From assembly GCF_030345095.1 (NCBI RefSeq), contig NZ_CP128360.1, positions 372,001-436,000 of the forward strand: a DNA stretch of 64,000 nt. The letters run 5' to 3'. The notes below the pieces were generated by a model. That model was given only the letters and a program-made list of their open reading frames with translations, made no database searches and was not told the origin of the DNA. Both the position numbers and the translations under genes were made by a program. Shown here in pieces: positions 40,531-47,245 of this stretch (position 1 is the first letter of the stretch; every line of letters begins with the position of its first letter). Source of the stretch: Solwaraspora sp. WMMA2056. Lineage in GTDB: Bacteria > Actinomycetota > Actinomycetes > Mycobacteriales > Micromonosporaceae.

Positions 40531-40615
40531 GGAGGATTCGCCTAGAGGCCTAGGGCGCACGCTTGGAAAGCGTGTTGGGTTAACACCCTCACGAGTTCGA
40601 ATCTCGTATCCTCCG
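40531..40615 (+). tRNA. tRNA-Ser(GGA)
   Basis: Acceptor arms GGAGGAT (40531-40537) and ATCCTCC (40608-40614) pair, discriminator G. The anticodon loop TTGGAAA gives GGA, and a long variable arm (GTTGGGTTAACACCC) confirms a serine tRNA. The CCA is not encoded. Its 3' end is repeated at 47197, marking an integrated island. Confidence 0.95.
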
Positions 40616-40618
40616 CTC
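40583..40618 (+). repeat. Left attachment-site repeat (attL)
   Basis: 36 bases covering the tRNA-Ser variable arm, T arm and 3' acceptor strand plus CTC. An identical 36-base copy lies at 47197-47232, and weaker similarity continues about 20 bases further upstream in both. Confidence 0.85.
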
Positions 40619-40631
40619 ACTGCGCAGGCCG

Positions 40632-42285
40632 ACCGCGAAGGTCCAGCCCCTCTGGGGTTGGACCTTCGCGGTCTCGTGTTTTGACCGTTCTGTGGGCAGG
40701 GTGGTGTGGTGTGGGTGTGTTCGTGGTGGTGTGGGTGAGGGCTGTTATTTGCCCTTGTGGATGGCGTTCCTGCGGATGACGGGGTAGCGGGTGCGGCGTT
40801 TGCGGCGTCTGCCGGCGGGGCGTCCGGGGCCGGGGTGGCCGGGTTTCGGGTGGCCTGGTGGTTGCCAGGCGTTGCGCAGAGCGGGTGAAACCTGTCGGCG
40901 GGTCTGGCCGGGGGTGGGTGTCGTGGTGGTGGCGGGTTCCCAGGGCAGCCGGTGGTGGGTCAGGTGGGTGCGGGCGCAGAACAGGTGCAGGTAGGCGTAG
41001 GAGTGCAGGCGGAGCCAGGTGGTCAGGGTGTCGGGTTGGCGGGGGGTGGAAGTCCGGGGCGTGGGCGGTGGTCTTCAGGTATCGGAAGTAGTGCTCGATG
41101 TCGAAGCGGGCCAGGTAGGTCATGACCAGGGTGAGCAGGTCACGGCGGGTACCGGAGTACCAGAGCGCGAGGTCGCCCGCGCGGCGGCTGGGGCGCAGGT
41201 GCTGGACCCGGGCGAGGAGGACGCTGCCCTCGACGATCGGGAGGGTGGACTGGTTGGTGAAGCCTCGGCTGGCGCGGGTGAGTTTGGGGTGGACCTGGTG
41301 CCAGGCCCGGACGGTGACGGTGCCGTAGATGTCGAGTGGTCCGCTGACACCGGCGTCGGGGTGCAGGTCGGGCTGGCGCAGGGCCAGGCGGAACCCGTGG
41401 CGGCGGGGGCGGCCGCCGAGGGGGTGCGCGGCCCGGCGTTCGGGTCTGGTCCACATGGTCTGCGAGGTCGCCAGCCGGACCAGGACGTCCGCGGGAATCC
41501 CGCGTTCGCGCAGCAGGTGGGTGATCCGGGCCGCGGGGTAGCCGGAGTCCAGCAGGAACAGTGACGGATCGGCCGGGCGGGCGCCGTCGGTGGCGCAGAC
41601 CCGGGCGATGTGGTCCACGGTGACCTCGACCAGGTCGTCGTCGGAGGCGATCCGGTCGGCCAGGACCGGCACGACCCACGAGTCCGGGGTCAGGGTCAAC
41701 CGGACGACGTGCTGGTACCGCCACCCGGTCTTGATCTGGGCCGCGCCGCGCGGGCCGCCCGGGGTGTACTGGGGCTGCCGGTCCGGGCTGGTCGGCGAGT
41801 TCGGCCGTGGCCACGCGGTGGTGTCGACGGCGTACACCCGGGGCAGGCCGGACCGCGCGGCGATCCGGCACGCCGCCCGCAACGCCCGGCCGGTGTCGAT
41901 CTCGCCGTCGCGTAACGCCCGGTACGCGGCGGCGTGCCCGGTGACGGTGCCCAGCGACAGATGCGCCGGACAGCCACACCGGCCCTGATCGGTGGCCAAC
42001 TCGTCGACCAGCGTGAACAACGTCCGTGACCGGGATGTGAGGACTCCCTCGTACAACTCCCGCCGCCACGAGTCCAGCAAGATCCGGCCCAGCTCGCTGT
42101 GACCGGTGCCGGTAGCCGTTACGCTCCTCATCGAGGACCCTGCCCATTGATGATCTTTGTGTGAGAACTCAGGATCATGGACAGGGTCCTCCCCGTTCCG
42201 CTAGACCTCGACCACCACGAATCCCCCCGATGGTCAAAACACGAGACGCGAAGGTCCAGCCCCTCTGGGGTTGGACCTTCGCGGT
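40632..42285. mobile_element. Insertion sequence with 55-bp terminal inverted repeats that are themselves hairpins
   Basis: The left end (40632 to about 40686) and the inverted right end (42285 to about 42231) agree over about 55 bases with a handful of mismatches and one gap. Each end contains a near-perfect palindrome built on GCGAAGGTCCA and its complement around a short loop. I see no clear target duplication. The element sits 13 bases beyond attL. Confidence 0.75.
40745..42131 (-). pseudogene. DDE transposase (IS4/IS701-like) with a frameshift at a C6 run
   Basis: From ATG 42131 about 360 residues are open, with catalytic-type motifs VDTTAW, LLDSGYP and a YLARFDIEHYFRYLK signature (the Y-x-R-x-x-E-x-x-F-R-x-x-K pattern). 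At the six-G run 41041-41046 (C6 in the mRNA) the sensible protein moves to another frame and continues RQPDTLTTWLRLHSYAYLHL to TAA at 40745-40747. Either the gene is dead or the run is a programmed slippage site. Confidence 0.7.
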
Positions 42286-42600
42286 TCAACCCCAGACTTA
42301 GTCTCAGTCCCCGTCTCGATCGCTGCTGGCAGGGGACGAGATGATGCTCCCCCATCCTGCTGGCGGACTGGCGCCTCTCACGCAGCTGCGAGATGATCCA
42401 GGCAGTCGCTCCAGCCAGAACGATCACGAGGGCAGCTCCGCCGGTGATGACTGGAACAGGTGTCACCTGGCATCACAGGGACCGCGACGGTCGCCAGGGC
42501 CACCGCCCCGGCAGTGAAGAGGCCGACGATGCCTCCTCTGCTGAGCGAGTGTTGGAAACCTCCCATTCCACCCCTTTCGTATGGATCTTGAGTTGGCCCC
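42286..42600 (-). other. Gap with remnant of a small membrane-protein gene
   Basis: 315 bases between the first insertion sequence and the HAD remnant. On the minus strand ATG 42566 follows an AAGGGGTGG ribosome-binding site and reads MGGFQHSLSRGGIVGLFTAG with a hydrophobic stretch. A second frame from GTG 42466 supplies another hydrophobic segment (AALVIVLAGATAWIISQL) and then runs into the insertion sequence without a stop. Together they look like one small two-helix membrane protein broken by a frameshift and by the insertion. Confidence 0.45.
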
Positions 42601-42789
42601 CTGACCGCCGACCTCGGCCGGCTGCTCGGTAAGGTCGGTGCGGCGCTGCTCGACTTCGACGGGCTGGTGTGCAGCATCTTCGCCGGATACCCGGCGCCGC
42701 AGGTTGCCGCCGAGCTGGTCGACGTGCTGCGGCAGCGAGGCGTCAACGTGCCGCCGGACCTCGCCAGCGAGCCAGACCCGCTAGCCTAG

Positions 42790-43706
42790 ACGAGTAAGTC
42801 CGATGTCGGGTCAAGTGGTCGTAGGCGATCAGGGACCTGGTCATGGGCTGGCCGGTGGCCCGGTTGTGCCAGATCGTGGCCGTCATCGCGAGGAGCCGCT
42901 GCGCGACTCGGGCGGCCACTCCCTCGATACTTCGGCCGCCATGTAACTCAAGGTCGAGCTGGCCCTTCAACGTGTCGTTGACCGACTCGATCAGCTGACG
43001 GACCGGCTTGAGCAGGTGCTCGTCACGACGGGGAGCGCGGTTACGGTACGACGGTCGCAGCAACCGCACCCCGCGCTCGGCCAGCCACCGGTCCAGCTCA
43101 GCGGAGACGTACCCCTTGTCCGCCACGATCAACAGACCCGGACGGTCGGTGACGAGGTCCGGGTCGTGATCGAGGATCGCGGTGAGTACCTGCCGCTCGT
43201 CGACCTTCGGGGTGGCCAGGGCCCAGGTGATGGGTAGACCGGACGGGGTGCAGACCAGATGCAGACGCAGGCCCCAGAAGAACCGCGAGTGCGAGGCGCA
43301 GTGGCCGTAACCGGCCCACCCGGCCAGGTCGGAGCGTTTCACCGTCGGTCTCGACCGGCCGCACTCCACCGGCGTGGAGTCGACCACCCAGGTCGTGTCG
43401 GACCACAGGTCGGTGTCTGCGGCGACCGCCCGGAGGGCGCGCTTGAGCAGCGGTAACGCGGCCCGCAGACGCTTGTTGTAGCCCGGACTGTCCGGGCAGG
43501 TACGGGAACGCTCCGGGTAGATGCCTGGGTACGAACCGTAGTCAACGCGCCTCGGAACGTACTCCGAGCAGTGCCTGCGCGACAGCCAGGGTGAGTAGTT
43601 CCGCGTCGGACAGCTTCGGTGGCCTACCGGTCCTGCGAGGCCGTCCGAGCCAGTCGTCGATCTTCACGTACAGTGCGGTCAGAAGGGTGTTGAGGTCTGT
43701 CGTCAC
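42790..43706 (-). pseudogene. IS982-family transposase, inactivated twice
   Basis: From GTG 43706 the protein reads TTDLNTLLTALYVKIDDWLG up to an in-frame TGA at 43542-43544, where relatives I remember have Trp (TGG). The frame then continues LRFVPRHLPGAFPYLPGQSG until one extra G at about 43482-43484 shifts it. The last frame holds VDSTPVECGRSRPTVKRSDL, the ADKGY motif and SVNDTLKGQ, so the DDE residues survive. The final frame has no stop inside the element. Confidence 0.75.
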
Positions 43707-43766
43707 AAACGGATCTTCAACACCCTTCGCCTATACCCACACACCGGGTCGTTAGGACTTACTCGT
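42790..43766. mobile_element. IS982-like insertion sequence flanked by CTAG
   Basis: Terminal inverted repeats ACGAGTAAGTCC are found at both ends, and CTAG flanks each side (42786-42789 and 43767-43770), read as a 4-bp target duplication. It interrupts a HAD hydrolase gene. Length about 977 bp, as usual for the family. Confidence 0.75.
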
Positions 43767-43999
43767 CTAGAGGTACTGCGCCGCATCGGGGCGAGCAGCG
43801 ACCAAGGCGTCACGCGAGCAGTGGAGGATGCGCCATGCGCAGCCGAACGCCAAGCCGCCGAGCCCACGCACTACGGCCGAGAGGTCATTGTGGCTGCCCG
43901 GCAAGCCGGGCTGCAGAGCTCCTGGTAGCGTCCTGGTAGCGCGACGTTCCATCGGACCACGGCTGGTTATGAGCAGGTCAGAAATGGCCATCGAGCTTC

Positions 44000-45253
44000 C
44001 TAGCTATCTCCAACTAACGGCAGCAAATCCCTACGTGCCGTAAGCCGCTGGTATGCAGCTTGCGGGAGAAACTCCTTCAACACTGGCCACTCCTGAATGA
44101 TAAGCTCTACCGCACGAGCTACCCTCGTGCGGATATGCCTTACCTCAATTTCCGTCCGGTTGGCCATGCGATCAAAGCTAGCAGGCGTGACCGACCCGAA
44201 CTCTCTGGAGCCATCCAGCTTGAGCCCTAGGTCGTCATTCTCGATATAAAGGACCGTTGGCACGATGTCATAAGCCGGACTTAAGGCCGGAAGAACCCCG
44301 TTAGGGTACGTTAGAGCCCAGTTCTTTAAGTGCGCATCGCCGTTACCGATCACTACATTTAGGACAATTCTATCGACTACGTCAAAAATCGCATCGGGCC
44401 CACAAAGGGCCCCAATCAGAGAAGCTACCGTCTCAAAGTTAGCTCGGACGTACTTTAGTCTTTCATTCGTTGTGGGCACGTCCAGTACTTGCGCAAGAAC
44501 TTCAGCATGGACACGCCCTCCATTAGGCTTCCGATCAAACCGCTTGACAGCCAACGCATCTCCGGGATACGACCGGGCCCAGCCAGGCAAGCCCTCGATA
44601 TCCGCTACCTCAAACAACATGGCCTCAGGAGTAGGGATACCGATCCTACGAGCCAACTCTAGTCCGGCCAGCTCCGACTGGGGAACGCCGCCGAAGCCAG
44701 GTCTTCCGTCTGGAAGCTTGACAATCCAATCGCCAGCCTGCCCGCGAGCAGGAATCGTGAGCCCTCGGGCATTTGTCATGACGACCGAAAACTTTGGCTG
44801 CACGCCAGCGAGGCTGAATTTGAGGACAGCATCTTCCGGAGCTTCCACATTCTCAGACGTTAGAGGCTCAGCAAGCCCCAAATCCACTGAGGAAGGTTCT
44901 GCTAACACTATTCGAACCGCGCCCGGGAGGTCGTCCCTCCCGAGGCGGAGAAGCATCGGAAACTCCCTTTTAGGGTTCACGGAAGTGGCCAAGGCCACTG
45001 CCGACCTTAGATAGCCCTCTGGTAAGAGGTGGGAAAACCAAGTCGGAACCGAGACCCTTTGACTAGGACGCCAAGTCGGCTCGTTTTCCTCGAATATCTG
45101 GCCAAGTACCAGGCGACGTTCCTGACGCCAGTACCCTTCATCGGACTCGAACCGGGTAATCTCGTCATTGTTGACCAGGCGACCTACGTTTTGCCACTCA
45201 CCCTCTGGCGAAAGAAGCTGCACTAATCCTACTCGCGCGAGCCTCGATTCCAT
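44000..45253 (-). CDS. HipA-family serine/threonine kinase
   Basis: 417 residues from ATG 45253, 3 bases after the stop of the DUF262 gene and 8 bases after a GAGGA. The N-terminal HipA subdomain shows VPTWFSHLLPEGYLRSAVAL and LLRLGRDDLPGAVRI (69-115). The kinase part has the SLAGVQPKFS loop (147-156), WIVKLPD (Lys 179), AVKRFDR (235-241), catalytic GNGDAHLKN (Asp 306) and the metal site LSPAYDI (Asp 329). All catalytic positions are kept. HipA toxins phosphorylate glutamyl-tRNA synthetase or other targets; here no HipB-like antitoxin is present, and the partner is a DUF262 protein instead. GC is well below the genome's. Confidence 0.88.
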   Translation of the reverse strand: MESRLARVGLVQLLSPEGEWQNVGRLVNNDEITRFESDEGYWRQERRLVLGQIFEENEPTWRPSQRVSVPTWFSHLLPEGYLRSAVALATSVNPKREFPMLLRLGRDDLPGAVRIVLAEPSSVDLGLAEPLTSENVEAPEDAVLKFSLAGVQPKFSVVMTNARGLTIPARGQAGDWIVKLPDGRPGFGGVPQSELAGLELARRIGIPTPEAMLFEVADIEGLPGWARSYPGDALAVKRFDRKPNGGRVHAEVLAQVLDVPTTNERLKYVRANFETVASLIGALCGPDAIFDVVDRIVLNVVIGNGDAHLKNWALTYPNGVLPALSPAYDIVPTVLYIENDDLGLKLDGSREFGSVTPASFDRMANRTEIEVRHIRTRVARAVELIIQEWPVLKEFLPQAAYQRLTARRDLLPLVGDS

Positions 45254-45256
45254 GAC

Positions 45257-46846
45257 TCAGTCCTCATCCTGAACGATCAGGCTGGATAATGCCGGACGCG
45301 CGAGGGTCTTCGATTCAACTCGGGACGATACATACCGCCCCAGGAGATCTTCGATGTACGCAGTTCGCAGGGCAACGAAATCATCGATCCGGCGAGCCCG
45401 CAGAGCCTCCGCAGCTTCAGCAGTTATGCCGTGACTTTCTAGTATTTTAGACGGCTCGAATCCCGTCGGGTATCCAGCGTTACGCGGCCAAAACCCACGC
45501 GCACCCACGTGTCCGCGCCGTTTAGGCACCAGTTCAGTAACCGCCCCTACACCCTGCTCCTCCAACCGAGCGCCGATGTCGATCGGCCGCCCGTCCAAGT
45601 CCAGTGGGTGCAAGGAAGCCAGTGCCAACATAGCCAGCCTCGCTGGAGACGACTCAGTACGGAATGGATGCAGTCTCAAGTTGTAGGAATCCTCGTCCAC
45701 GACGCTGGAGATCAAGCCGAGGGCAGCGCGGTCTTCGACCGGGGCTAGGTCGGGCTTCCCCTTCTTTGGGTTGACACTGTAGATCGCCTGACGCAACGCC
45801 GGCGTCTGTCCTTGCCGACCAAAACCATGGACCCATCCACGCCACAGCCACCGGCCTAGAAGCCGCTGAGTCCAGGAATCTGGCTCAGGGTGGAGATGAA
45901 AGAATGCGGCTAGCACGGGGAGTGGGAGAGTAGAGGGCATCAGCAATAGGTGAGGGATCCCCTGCTTCCGCAAGAAGGTGATTGCCAGTGTCAGAGCCTG
46001 CTCGGTTTTCTCGTACCATTCTGCGGCATTTTCGCCGCTATCAAATTCGTCGCGTAGATCGCGCTGAATGTTGCCACCCCTCAGCGCAATAAGGCTTTGA
46101 ACAACGCGGTCGGAATCAACGATTCCGAACCCTAGACGACTGAGGGCTTCGGTTACAGTCTGAGGGCTGCCCGGCTCCGCTTCGCTCGCGAACAATGCGT
46201 GGAAGACGTCGGCCCGCCCGATGGGCTTACCGGCCGAGTTGACTCGGTCGAAGATTTTACGGAGAAGATAATCATCATCGCCGGAAACTATGTATGCAGG
46301 TACCTGATAATCGCGCAGAGCGCCCCCTAGAGCATCCGCTGCGTCATAGTCGTCCGGTTCAAGGTCGTCGACATGCTCTCTTAGCCAGGAAAGCAAGGAC
46401 CTGCTGTCGACTGCCCTGTGCACCGGCAGCCAAGTGGGTGGCACAGAACTACCGCCTGTCGCAAATCGCCCTCGCCTTAGATCAAAAAATACCTCAAAGC
46501 GTTTATCGACATTGCGGTGAGTCGGATTCAGGGCACCGACGAGGGATGTAATACGCTGCTGCCCATCAACAACCCACAAAGCGTCAGTCCGCTCGCGGAC
46601 AGCGATAGAAAGCGGGCCAAATTCGACCGCACCGGCCGCCGCGCTCTTTTGCCAAAGAAGTAGCGTGCCTATTGGAAAGCCTCGCCACAGACTATCGAAT
46701 AAATCCAGTACGTCTTTTTCGTCCCATACGAAGCTTCGCTGAAAGCGAGGAATCCGTAATTGACCCTTCAAGCCCTGGTCAACAAGGTCAGGAACGTAAA
46801 AATTGGTCGACCGGGGTCGGTTTAGCTGCTCGGCCGATTGAGTCAT
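45257..46846 (-). CDS. DUF262 (GmrS/SspE-like N-terminal domain) protein
   Basis: 529 residues from ATG 46846, with AGAGGA just upstream; the frame is open to 47047 but that part is outside the family. The DUF262 domain has the substrate-loop RIPRFQRSFVW (31-41), the NTPase motif DGQQR (94-98) followed by ITSL, and KIFDRVNSAGKPI (197-209). The remaining about 300 residues are helical and end SHGITAEAAEALRARRIDDF; I see no DUF1524 HNH motif, so nuclease activity is not supported. DUF262 occurs in type IV restriction (GmrSD) and in SspE. It is coupled to the HipA-like kinase gene. Confidence 0.85.
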   Translation of the reverse strand: MTQSAEQLNRPRSTNFYVPDLVDQGLKGQLRIPRFQRSFVWDEKDVLDLFDSLWRGFPIGTLLLWQKSAAAGAVEFGPLSIAVRERTDALWVVDGQQRITSLVGALNPTHRNVDKRFEVFFDLRRGRFATGGSSVPPTWLPVHRAVDSRSLLSWLREHVDDLEPDDYDAADALGGALRDYQVPAYIVSGDDDYLLRKIFDRVNSAGKPIGRADVFHALFASEAEPGSPQTVTEALSRLGFGIVDSDRVVQSLIALRGGNIQRDLRDEFDSGENAAEWYEKTEQALTLAITFLRKQGIPHLLLMPSTLPLPVLAAFFHLHPEPDSWTQRLLGRWLWRGWVHGFGRQGQTPALRQAIYSVNPKKGKPDLAPVEDRAALGLISSVVDEDSYNLRLHPFRTESSPARLAMLALASLHPLDLDGRPIDIGARLEEQGVGAVTELVPKRRGHVGARGFWPRNAGYPTGFEPSKILESHGITAEAAEALRARRIDDFVALRTAYIEDLLGRYVSSRVESKTLARPALSSLIVQDED

Positions 46847-47196
46847 CCCATTCCTCTCAATTTGCGCTGAAGACCCTCCGTCTTGGCATGAGACGCAACC
46901 AGCATACGCGCGCCTTAGCCAGAAGCTGGCCGACGCCGCTCTCACTGGCCACTCGCGCGGCCCAGGCGGCGCGTCTGAAGCCCTGCCTGCCCGCTCGTTC
47001 GGTCGCCGAGGGTCACTCGGAGTCTTGTAGCCGCTCGAACGGGCCAAGGCGCTGTCTCAGTTCCGTCTCATTCATGTACGAACCCGGCCGGCCCCGTTCA
47101 GTGAGCGCTGCCTCCCTAGGAGCTGCCTCCCTAGGAGAGGACGCGAGTGGCGTTCAGCGTACGCGTGTCAGCAGACCTGGAAAGTGGGTTGGGTTC
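46847..47196 (+). other. Region upstream of the DUF262 gene, no gene seen
   Basis: 350 bases of mixed composition between the DUF262 start and the right attachment repeat. It must hold the promoter of the pair. A 15-bp tandem repeat built on CTGCCTCCCTAGGAG lies at 47108-47137. A long plus-strand frame crossing the tRNA 3' end is an artefact. Confidence 0.5.
47108..47137 (+). repeat. 15-bp tandem repeat inside the right island end
   Basis: Two identical copies of CTGCCTCCCTAGGAG, about 60 bases inside the right attachment repeat. Could be recombinase arm sites or slippage. Confidence 0.85.
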
Positions 47197-47232
47197 ACAC
47201 CCTCACGAGTTCGAATCTCGTATCCTCCGCTC
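47197..47232 (+). repeat. Right attachment-site repeat (attR), tRNA-Ser 3' end
   Basis: Identical over 36 bases to 40583-40618. The upstream part (TGGAAAGTGGGTTGGGTTC) is a mutated copy of the anticodon and variable-arm region. There is no 5' half, so it is not a functional tRNA. Confidence 0.85.
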
Positions 47233-47245
47233 TCTGAGCAGCCGC

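Follow-up and report, generated by a model that had tools for sequence, protein, structure and literature searches.

A conserved two-gene module of a DUF262 protein and a HipA-type kinase, carried on a tRNA-Ser island in Solwaraspora sp. WMMA2056

In the 64,000-nucleotide stretch of Solwaraspora sp. WMMA2056 DNA analysed here (the window), two genes lie next to each other on the minus strand, separated by an intergenic gap of 3 bases on the same strand (45254..45256). According to ORF calling and Pfam, the first gene of the pair (45257..46846) encodes a 529-aa DUF262 (GmrSD_N) protein, and the second (44000..45253) encodes a HipA-type Ser/Thr kinase of 417 aa. The layout is as the initial annotation had it, with two ORFs sharing one strand 3 bases apart, and its description of a region of lower GC likewise holds, with values of 0.555–0.586 across the two genes compared with approximately 0.64–0.80 in stretches outside the pair.

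The pair is carried on an inserted island of 6.6 kb (40617..47241). The integration site is an intact tRNA-Ser (GGA) gene on the plus strand (40531..40616), and the far boundary of the insert is formed by a 64-bp copy of the tRNA-Ser 3' end (47178..47241, plus strand; 92% identical), in agreement with the tRNA insertion proposed earlier. In a genome of the same genus (G683, L216), the match to the window from 47178 onward begins within the tRNA 3' end; therefore, the insert is absent there. In addition, six congeners yielded no DUF262 match above 330 bits and no kinase match above 220 bits. The view that the two genes are the only intact ones in the island stands broadly: besides the pair, Pfam finds only transposase-like ORFs, comprising a 504-aa ORF with a weak DDE_Tnp_1 match under the curated cut-off (40617..42131, minus strand) and a truncated DDE transposase ORF (42743..43387, minus strand). 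The 504-aa ORF is bracketed by repeats (40631-40673 and 42232-42285), which suggests that they are the ends of an IS. No integrase was found by Pfam among the ORFs of the insert that were scanned. In one of the six congeners (G681, L213:1044-15700), the same tRNA-Ser site is occupied by an insert of 14.7 kb, whose first ORF, of 419 aa, looks integrase-like by eye and whose far end bears a second fragment of the tRNA 3' end.

The GmrSD_N match of the DUF262 protein covers residues 20-219 (Pfam, E 1.6e-25), and PF03235 is matched in 44/44 aligned members of the family. Its DGQQR motif, reported earlier as intact, corresponds to D94-R98 and is kept in 76/77 kinase-paired DUF262 proteins (from the best 80 of at least 516 relatives). 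The earlier observation that an HNH nuclease motif is absent was confirmed on a wider scale, as the HNH histidine motif occurs in 0/77 of these paired proteins (again from the best 80 of at least 516) versus 19/30 other DUF262 proteins, and DUF1524 gave no Pfam match at E up to 1 in the 44 aligned members. Pfam alone is weak evidence for this loss, because nine other DUF262 proteins likewise have no Pfam DUF1524 match, one of them having a weak HNH_4 match alone. Profile homology to HNH-bearing DUF262 proteins extends across 514 columns, and the histidine pair is replaced in the kinase-linked family. A first HNH pattern performed poorly (3/77 vs 2/30) and was dropped; its three Streptomyces matches fall in a loop away from the position of the motif. 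Furthermore, the predicted structure of the DUF262 protein resembles BrxU and SspE, in Foldseek and VIA-align lists that hold other folds at low scores and in which a missing family is no evidence. As judged from sequence and structure prediction, the DUF262 protein keeps the NTP-binding/hydrolysis motifs and the overall fold of its relatives and has lost the HNH nuclease site.

In the kinase, an N-terminal Couple_hipA domain (E 2.5e-10) and a HipA_C domain (E 3.4e-40) are fused in one ORF (Pfam). The kinase residues previously noted as kept, Lys 179, Asp 306 and Asp 329, are invariant, together with S147 and N311, in 42 kinases chosen as full-length. We take S147, K179, D306, N311 and D329 to correspond to the residues for autophosphorylation, ATP, catalysis and Mg binding in HipA; PDB titles name S150A and D309Q. 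With its HipA_C domain and the key residues invariant in the 42-kinase alignment, the protein can be assigned by sequence to the HipA family; by sequence it matches HipT and HipA in the PDB, and its structure model (pLDDT 89.1, pTM 0.90) matches HipA. No HipB-like ORF was detected among the nearby window ORFs scanned (Pfam, no HTH match). This agrees with the initial annotation. Elsewhere on the same chromosome, at ~2.98 Mb (L157) and 2.6 Mb from the DUF262-kinase pair, there is an ordinary HTH-HipA pair whose genes overlap. An antitoxin acting on the island kinase from this distant pair is possible but unlikely, because the island kinase has its own linked partner.

The linkage of the two genes was examined across genomes. 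A profile of 13 DUF262 relatives retrieved at least 516 related proteins from named genomes, the best 80 of which were taken as loci. In 77/80 of these best-scoring loci, a HipA gene immediately follows the DUF262 gene on the same strand (kinase profile); two of the three unpaired loci (L093, L082) end less than 1 kb from the DUF262 gene, and the third (L084) has no kinase. In 73/77 pairs from the same best 80 of at least 516, the kinase, taken from its nearest candidate start codon, begins between 30 bases inside and 5 bases past the end of the DUF262 gene. The 80 loci, being the best of at least 516, belong to Actinomycetota (44), Pseudomonadota (20), Myxococcota (9), Cyanobacteriota (2), Thermomicrobiota (1), Acidobacteriota (1) and Ignavibacteriota (1), with 2 lacking a phylum; adjacency is therefore not confined to this strain and is found in seven named phyla. 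Proximity to a tRNA, which had been put forward as a further property to score, did not generalize: a tRNA lies within 2 kb in 6/80 loci (best 80 of at least 516), approximately the chance level estimated from 16 tRNA genes in 1,477 kb, and it was rejected as a general trait of the pair.

Linkage was also scored in three samples, which share some genomes and are not independent. In the order sample (298 genomes), a kinase match, in some cases broken or cut, stands beside 12/13 DUF262 matches at E up to 1e-59, the one match without a kinase being in the genome of L084; conversely, DUF262 adjoins the kinase in 11/13 kinase-bearing genomes (E up to 1e-20), the two exceptions being weak (74-82 bits). 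In the family sample (240 genomes, scored from coordinates), a kinase adjoins 20/20 DUF262 matches above 330 bits, with partial kinases in G175 and G723, and DUF262 adjoins 21/22 kinases above 220 bits, including a divergent DUF262 of 226 bits in G794; the one kinase lacking it, in G748, is a fragment. The other, weaker DUF262 matches of the family sample number 30, and a kinase match adjoins none of them. For the phylum sample (396 genomes), DUF262 adjoins 4/4 kinases above 450 bits, the next kinase match scores 193 bits, and the short flanks of 26 weaker kinase loci contain no DUF262. Chance neighbours or hitch-hikers in a single island could be imagined from the few genes left in a decayed island; the reciprocal linkage counts across the seven named phyla refute this explanation, whose likelihood we regard as practically nil. 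A third gene was also considered as part of the module and rejected, since clustering of flanking ORFs of at least 120 aa returned no flanking protein family in more than 3 genera.

In a phylogenetic tree, a single branch (SH-aLRT 100) separates seventy DUF262-linked kinases and that of the window from 20 further HipA proteins of actinobacteria, the tree having taken 70/77 linked kinases after shorter ORFs were dropped, and phyla are intermixed among the linked kinases. The distances of DUF262 and kinase correlate (Mantel r 0.865, 69 pairs, 0/2000 permutations as high), a correlation in which the Mantel test leaves shared ancestry. Locus L112 (2182-15336) has two kinase genes, the first of 763 aa with a C-terminal extension unrecognised by Pfam. 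A plasmid search with the second of them placed rhizobial kinases of 37-39% identity after two Azospirillum pairs (among 15 records listed of 1,113 matching ones). Three of the four rhizobial loci opened have an annotated HTH protein of 195-197 aa (Pfam HTH_3) directly upstream of the kinase with an 8-base overlap, and the fourth (L292) has an unannotated 198-aa ORF there that is HTH-like by eye. In a tree of 77 rows, from which 20 rows had been dropped to thin the set, the four rhizobial kinases nest inside the DUF262-linked ones; the linked kinases form one group in 0/200 bootstrap trees, and a constraint to that effect is disfavoured (p-AU 0.021, for a group named after the first tree). Therefore, either an HTH gene or DUF262 fills the same slot in one kinase clade, and the proposal that this clade occurs only with DUF262 was rejected. 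This suggests, at the level of sequence, an exchange of the upstream partner within a clade of HipA kinases. Because the nested rhizobial kinases have an HTH gene in the slot of DUF262, the latter probably stands in for an antitoxin, and the shared slot is the best evidence for this role. The partnership that had been conjectured from a single island is strongly supported by reciprocal linkage across phyla, the tree branch, correlated divergence, the lack of a recurrent third gene and the HTH gene in the same slot.

Two Azospirillum plasmids bear the pair, and its GC is below that of the flanks in 69/76 loci with enough flank, by a mean of 5.7 points. DUF262 and the HipA kinase constitute a conserved, mobile and widespread two-gene module. 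A phage-borne form was sought and rejected, with a kinase match in 0/37 DUF262 loci on viral contigs, many of which are short; three phage records have weak DUF262 matches.

Several loci bear on the division of roles between the two proteins. Locus L084 (10001-12418) holds an intact DUF262 gene of the kinase-linked family without a kinase, adjoining an AviRa-like rRNA methyltransferase gene; it belongs to the same genome as L007/L192, so the count of two separate DUF262-only loci was rejected, both being one genome. Among the 80 loci, a DUF262-seeded set from which 3 loci at contig ends were set aside, the kinase is broken or absent with DUF262 intact in 6 and the reverse holds in 2. This polarity was rejected as evidence of roles, 6 vs 2 being too weak and seed-biased. 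The roles could be reversed, with DUF262 acting as the effector, a ParB/Srx-fold nuclease or NTPase switched by kinase phosphorylation. Such an arrangement would accord with the putative nuclease role proposed for the HNH-less DUF262 protein PtuX in the available text of PMC11980606, and with the 6/80 loci (best of at least 516) in which DUF262 is intact although the kinase is broken or absent. However, the known nuclease site is gone from the DUF262 protein and kinases of the same clade adjoin an HTH gene in place of DUF262, and we consider a reversal improbable.

The neighbourhood of the pair was scanned with PADLOC. Among 150/152 nearest neighbours of at least 150 aa (E up to 1e-10, one very long and one other neighbour left out), few matches were obtained, including restriction enzymes and helicase-type and kinase-type models, in a scan that had no control set and reports families rather than members. 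In the window, 1/10 ORFs around the pair has a PADLOC match, namely an oxidoreductase-like ORF outside the insert. The immediate neighbours are seldom defence genes and give no clear defence-island signal. For this reason, a plain toxin-antitoxin or addiction module, in which DUF262 would be merely antitoxin and autoregulator and would hold the island in place with no phage sensing, remains a serious rival, albeit one we judge unlikely. Its slot and gene order match those of HTH-HipA pairs on rhizobial plasmids, and the location on an insert, the two Azospirillum plasmids and the lowered GC in 69/76 loci would all suit it; against it, the DUF262 protein is large, related to restriction enzymes and equipped with conserved NTPase motifs, which is more than an antitoxin needs. 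The scarcity of defence genes in the neighbour scans would equally fit a signalling or stress-control kinase with no tie to defence. We give little credence to that alternative, as the distribution is patchy, horizontally spread and of low GC, and both halves have defence-type relatives. By analogy with these relatives, phage defence by the DUF262-kinase pair is plausible.

The reading we favour, with slightly less than even confidence, is that a nuclease-dead, type-IV-restriction-like NTPase sensor (DUF262) controls a HipA-type kinase effector, such that foreign DNA leads to kinase release and growth arrest. Here, the DUF262 protein would be both sensor and keeper: at rest, it would hold the kinase inactive in place of HipB, which presupposes that the two proteins bind each other and that the free kinase is toxic. 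The trigger read by the DUF262 protein would most likely be foreign or modified DNA, by analogy with its nuclease-bearing relatives, and would change its NTP state so that the kinase is freed. The freed kinase may then phosphorylate a target in the cell, which would be an aminoacyl-tRNA synthetase if HipA/HipT is a guide, and growth would stop. Against this sensor-kinase reading stand the neighbours that are seldom defence genes, the L084 locus with DUF262 alone, the 0/37 viral loci with a kinase and the weak decay polarity; in addition, kinases of this kind can dispense with DUF262, as seen in the rhizobial clade. A more specific evolutionary version, that a restriction lineage lost its nuclease and took over a kinase output, with DUF262 reading foreign or modified DNA via its NTP cycle and releasing HipA, is possible and more tentative still. 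If true, it would amount to restriction by phosphorylation in place of cutting. This two-gene family, present in seven named phyla and outside the tested PADLOC models, joins two well-studied protein families and offers a simple two-gene setting for probing the signal sensed by DUF262 and its control over an effector.

In the titles, abstracts and passages of the literature searched, short of preprints and supplements, no description of a DUF262-HipA pair was found; the main text of a HipA family survey (PMC8262856) contains no word starting with DUF, and no PADLOC model tested fits the pair. One of the closest known systems is HipBA, which likewise has a HipA kinase with Couple_hipA and HipA_C domains and a partner gene upstream, overlapping or adjacent, and whose HTH gene occupies the partner slot in the nested rhizobial relatives. 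However, the partner here is a DUF262 protein of ~530 aa instead of the small HTH protein HipB. HipBST contributes the kinases that are the closest PDB sequence matches of the window kinase, and the pair differs from it in composition: in the available text of PMC8262856, HipT lacks the N-terminal domain and HipS is separate, whereas this domain is fused in the window kinase. HipA-DUF3037 (HipAD, DS-6, PDC-M66) is also a two-gene HipA system without HipB. For that system, loss of defence on kinase deletion and toxicity on partner deletion are described in the consulted portion of PMC12548924, and loss of defence with a kinase-site mutation in that of PMC13092281. Its partner is different, and 0/9 kinases of the DUF262-linked family match PDC-M66 in PADLOC; the nine match PDC-M03A alone with weak scores, one also matching Cmr5 weakly. 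DUF3037 (PF11236) has no match in the window's genome, with one control genome matched, and the short flanks of 20 DUF3037 loci contain no HipA match.

On the DUF262 side, the nearest PADLOC model to the window protein is the C component of PDC-M55, itself a DUF262 protein (5.5e-50, 169 bits). Identity with PDC-M55 was rejected, as 817 bits are reached by a DUF262 protein that adjoins PDC-M55A and a PglX-like gene, compared with 169 bits here, and the ten window ORFs around the pair contain no PDC-M55 match. PDC-M55 is likewise absent from the families listed for 150/152 neighbours of related loci (25 of 40 plus all 13 families), and a PDC-M55B search of the genome gave no match, the control being likewise unmatched. 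Another HNH-less DUF262 group with a DGHQR motif occurs in three Micromonosporaceae (L189, L190 and L191 in G220, G126 and G175) beside an AAA-ATPase-type gene, which is PDC-M55A in L189, and a PglX-like methylase; L190 also has a PDC-M55B gene. This group is a second lineage of DUF262 proteins, and its set of partners differs.

With GmrSD, BrxU, SspE, DndI and GrwA, the protein shares a DUF262 domain with QR, DGQQR and FxxxN motifs, and profile and fold similarity over most of its length. It has the DUF262 domain with DGQQR expected of GmrSD type IV restriction enzymes, but its HNH (DUF1524) site is lost and a separate kinase gene is present instead. DUF262 relatives have been described as parts of defence systems in GrwAB, DndI and BrxU (PMC12137116, PMC11662687 and PMC8565348, in the sections available). 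Type I RM genes are reported near GmrSD homologues in the available text of PMC4619093, as at L112, where the methylase gene of a type I restriction-modification system, together with its neighbours, precedes the pair. PtuXYZ also combines an HNH-less DUF262 protein with a different effector; as far as the accessible part of PMC11980606 describes it, that system has an ATPase and a BECR RNase and no kinase. Altogether, these comparisons suggest that DUF262 serves as a sensor that can be reused with interchangeable outputs, namely an HNH nuclease, an RNase or, in the module described here, a kinase.
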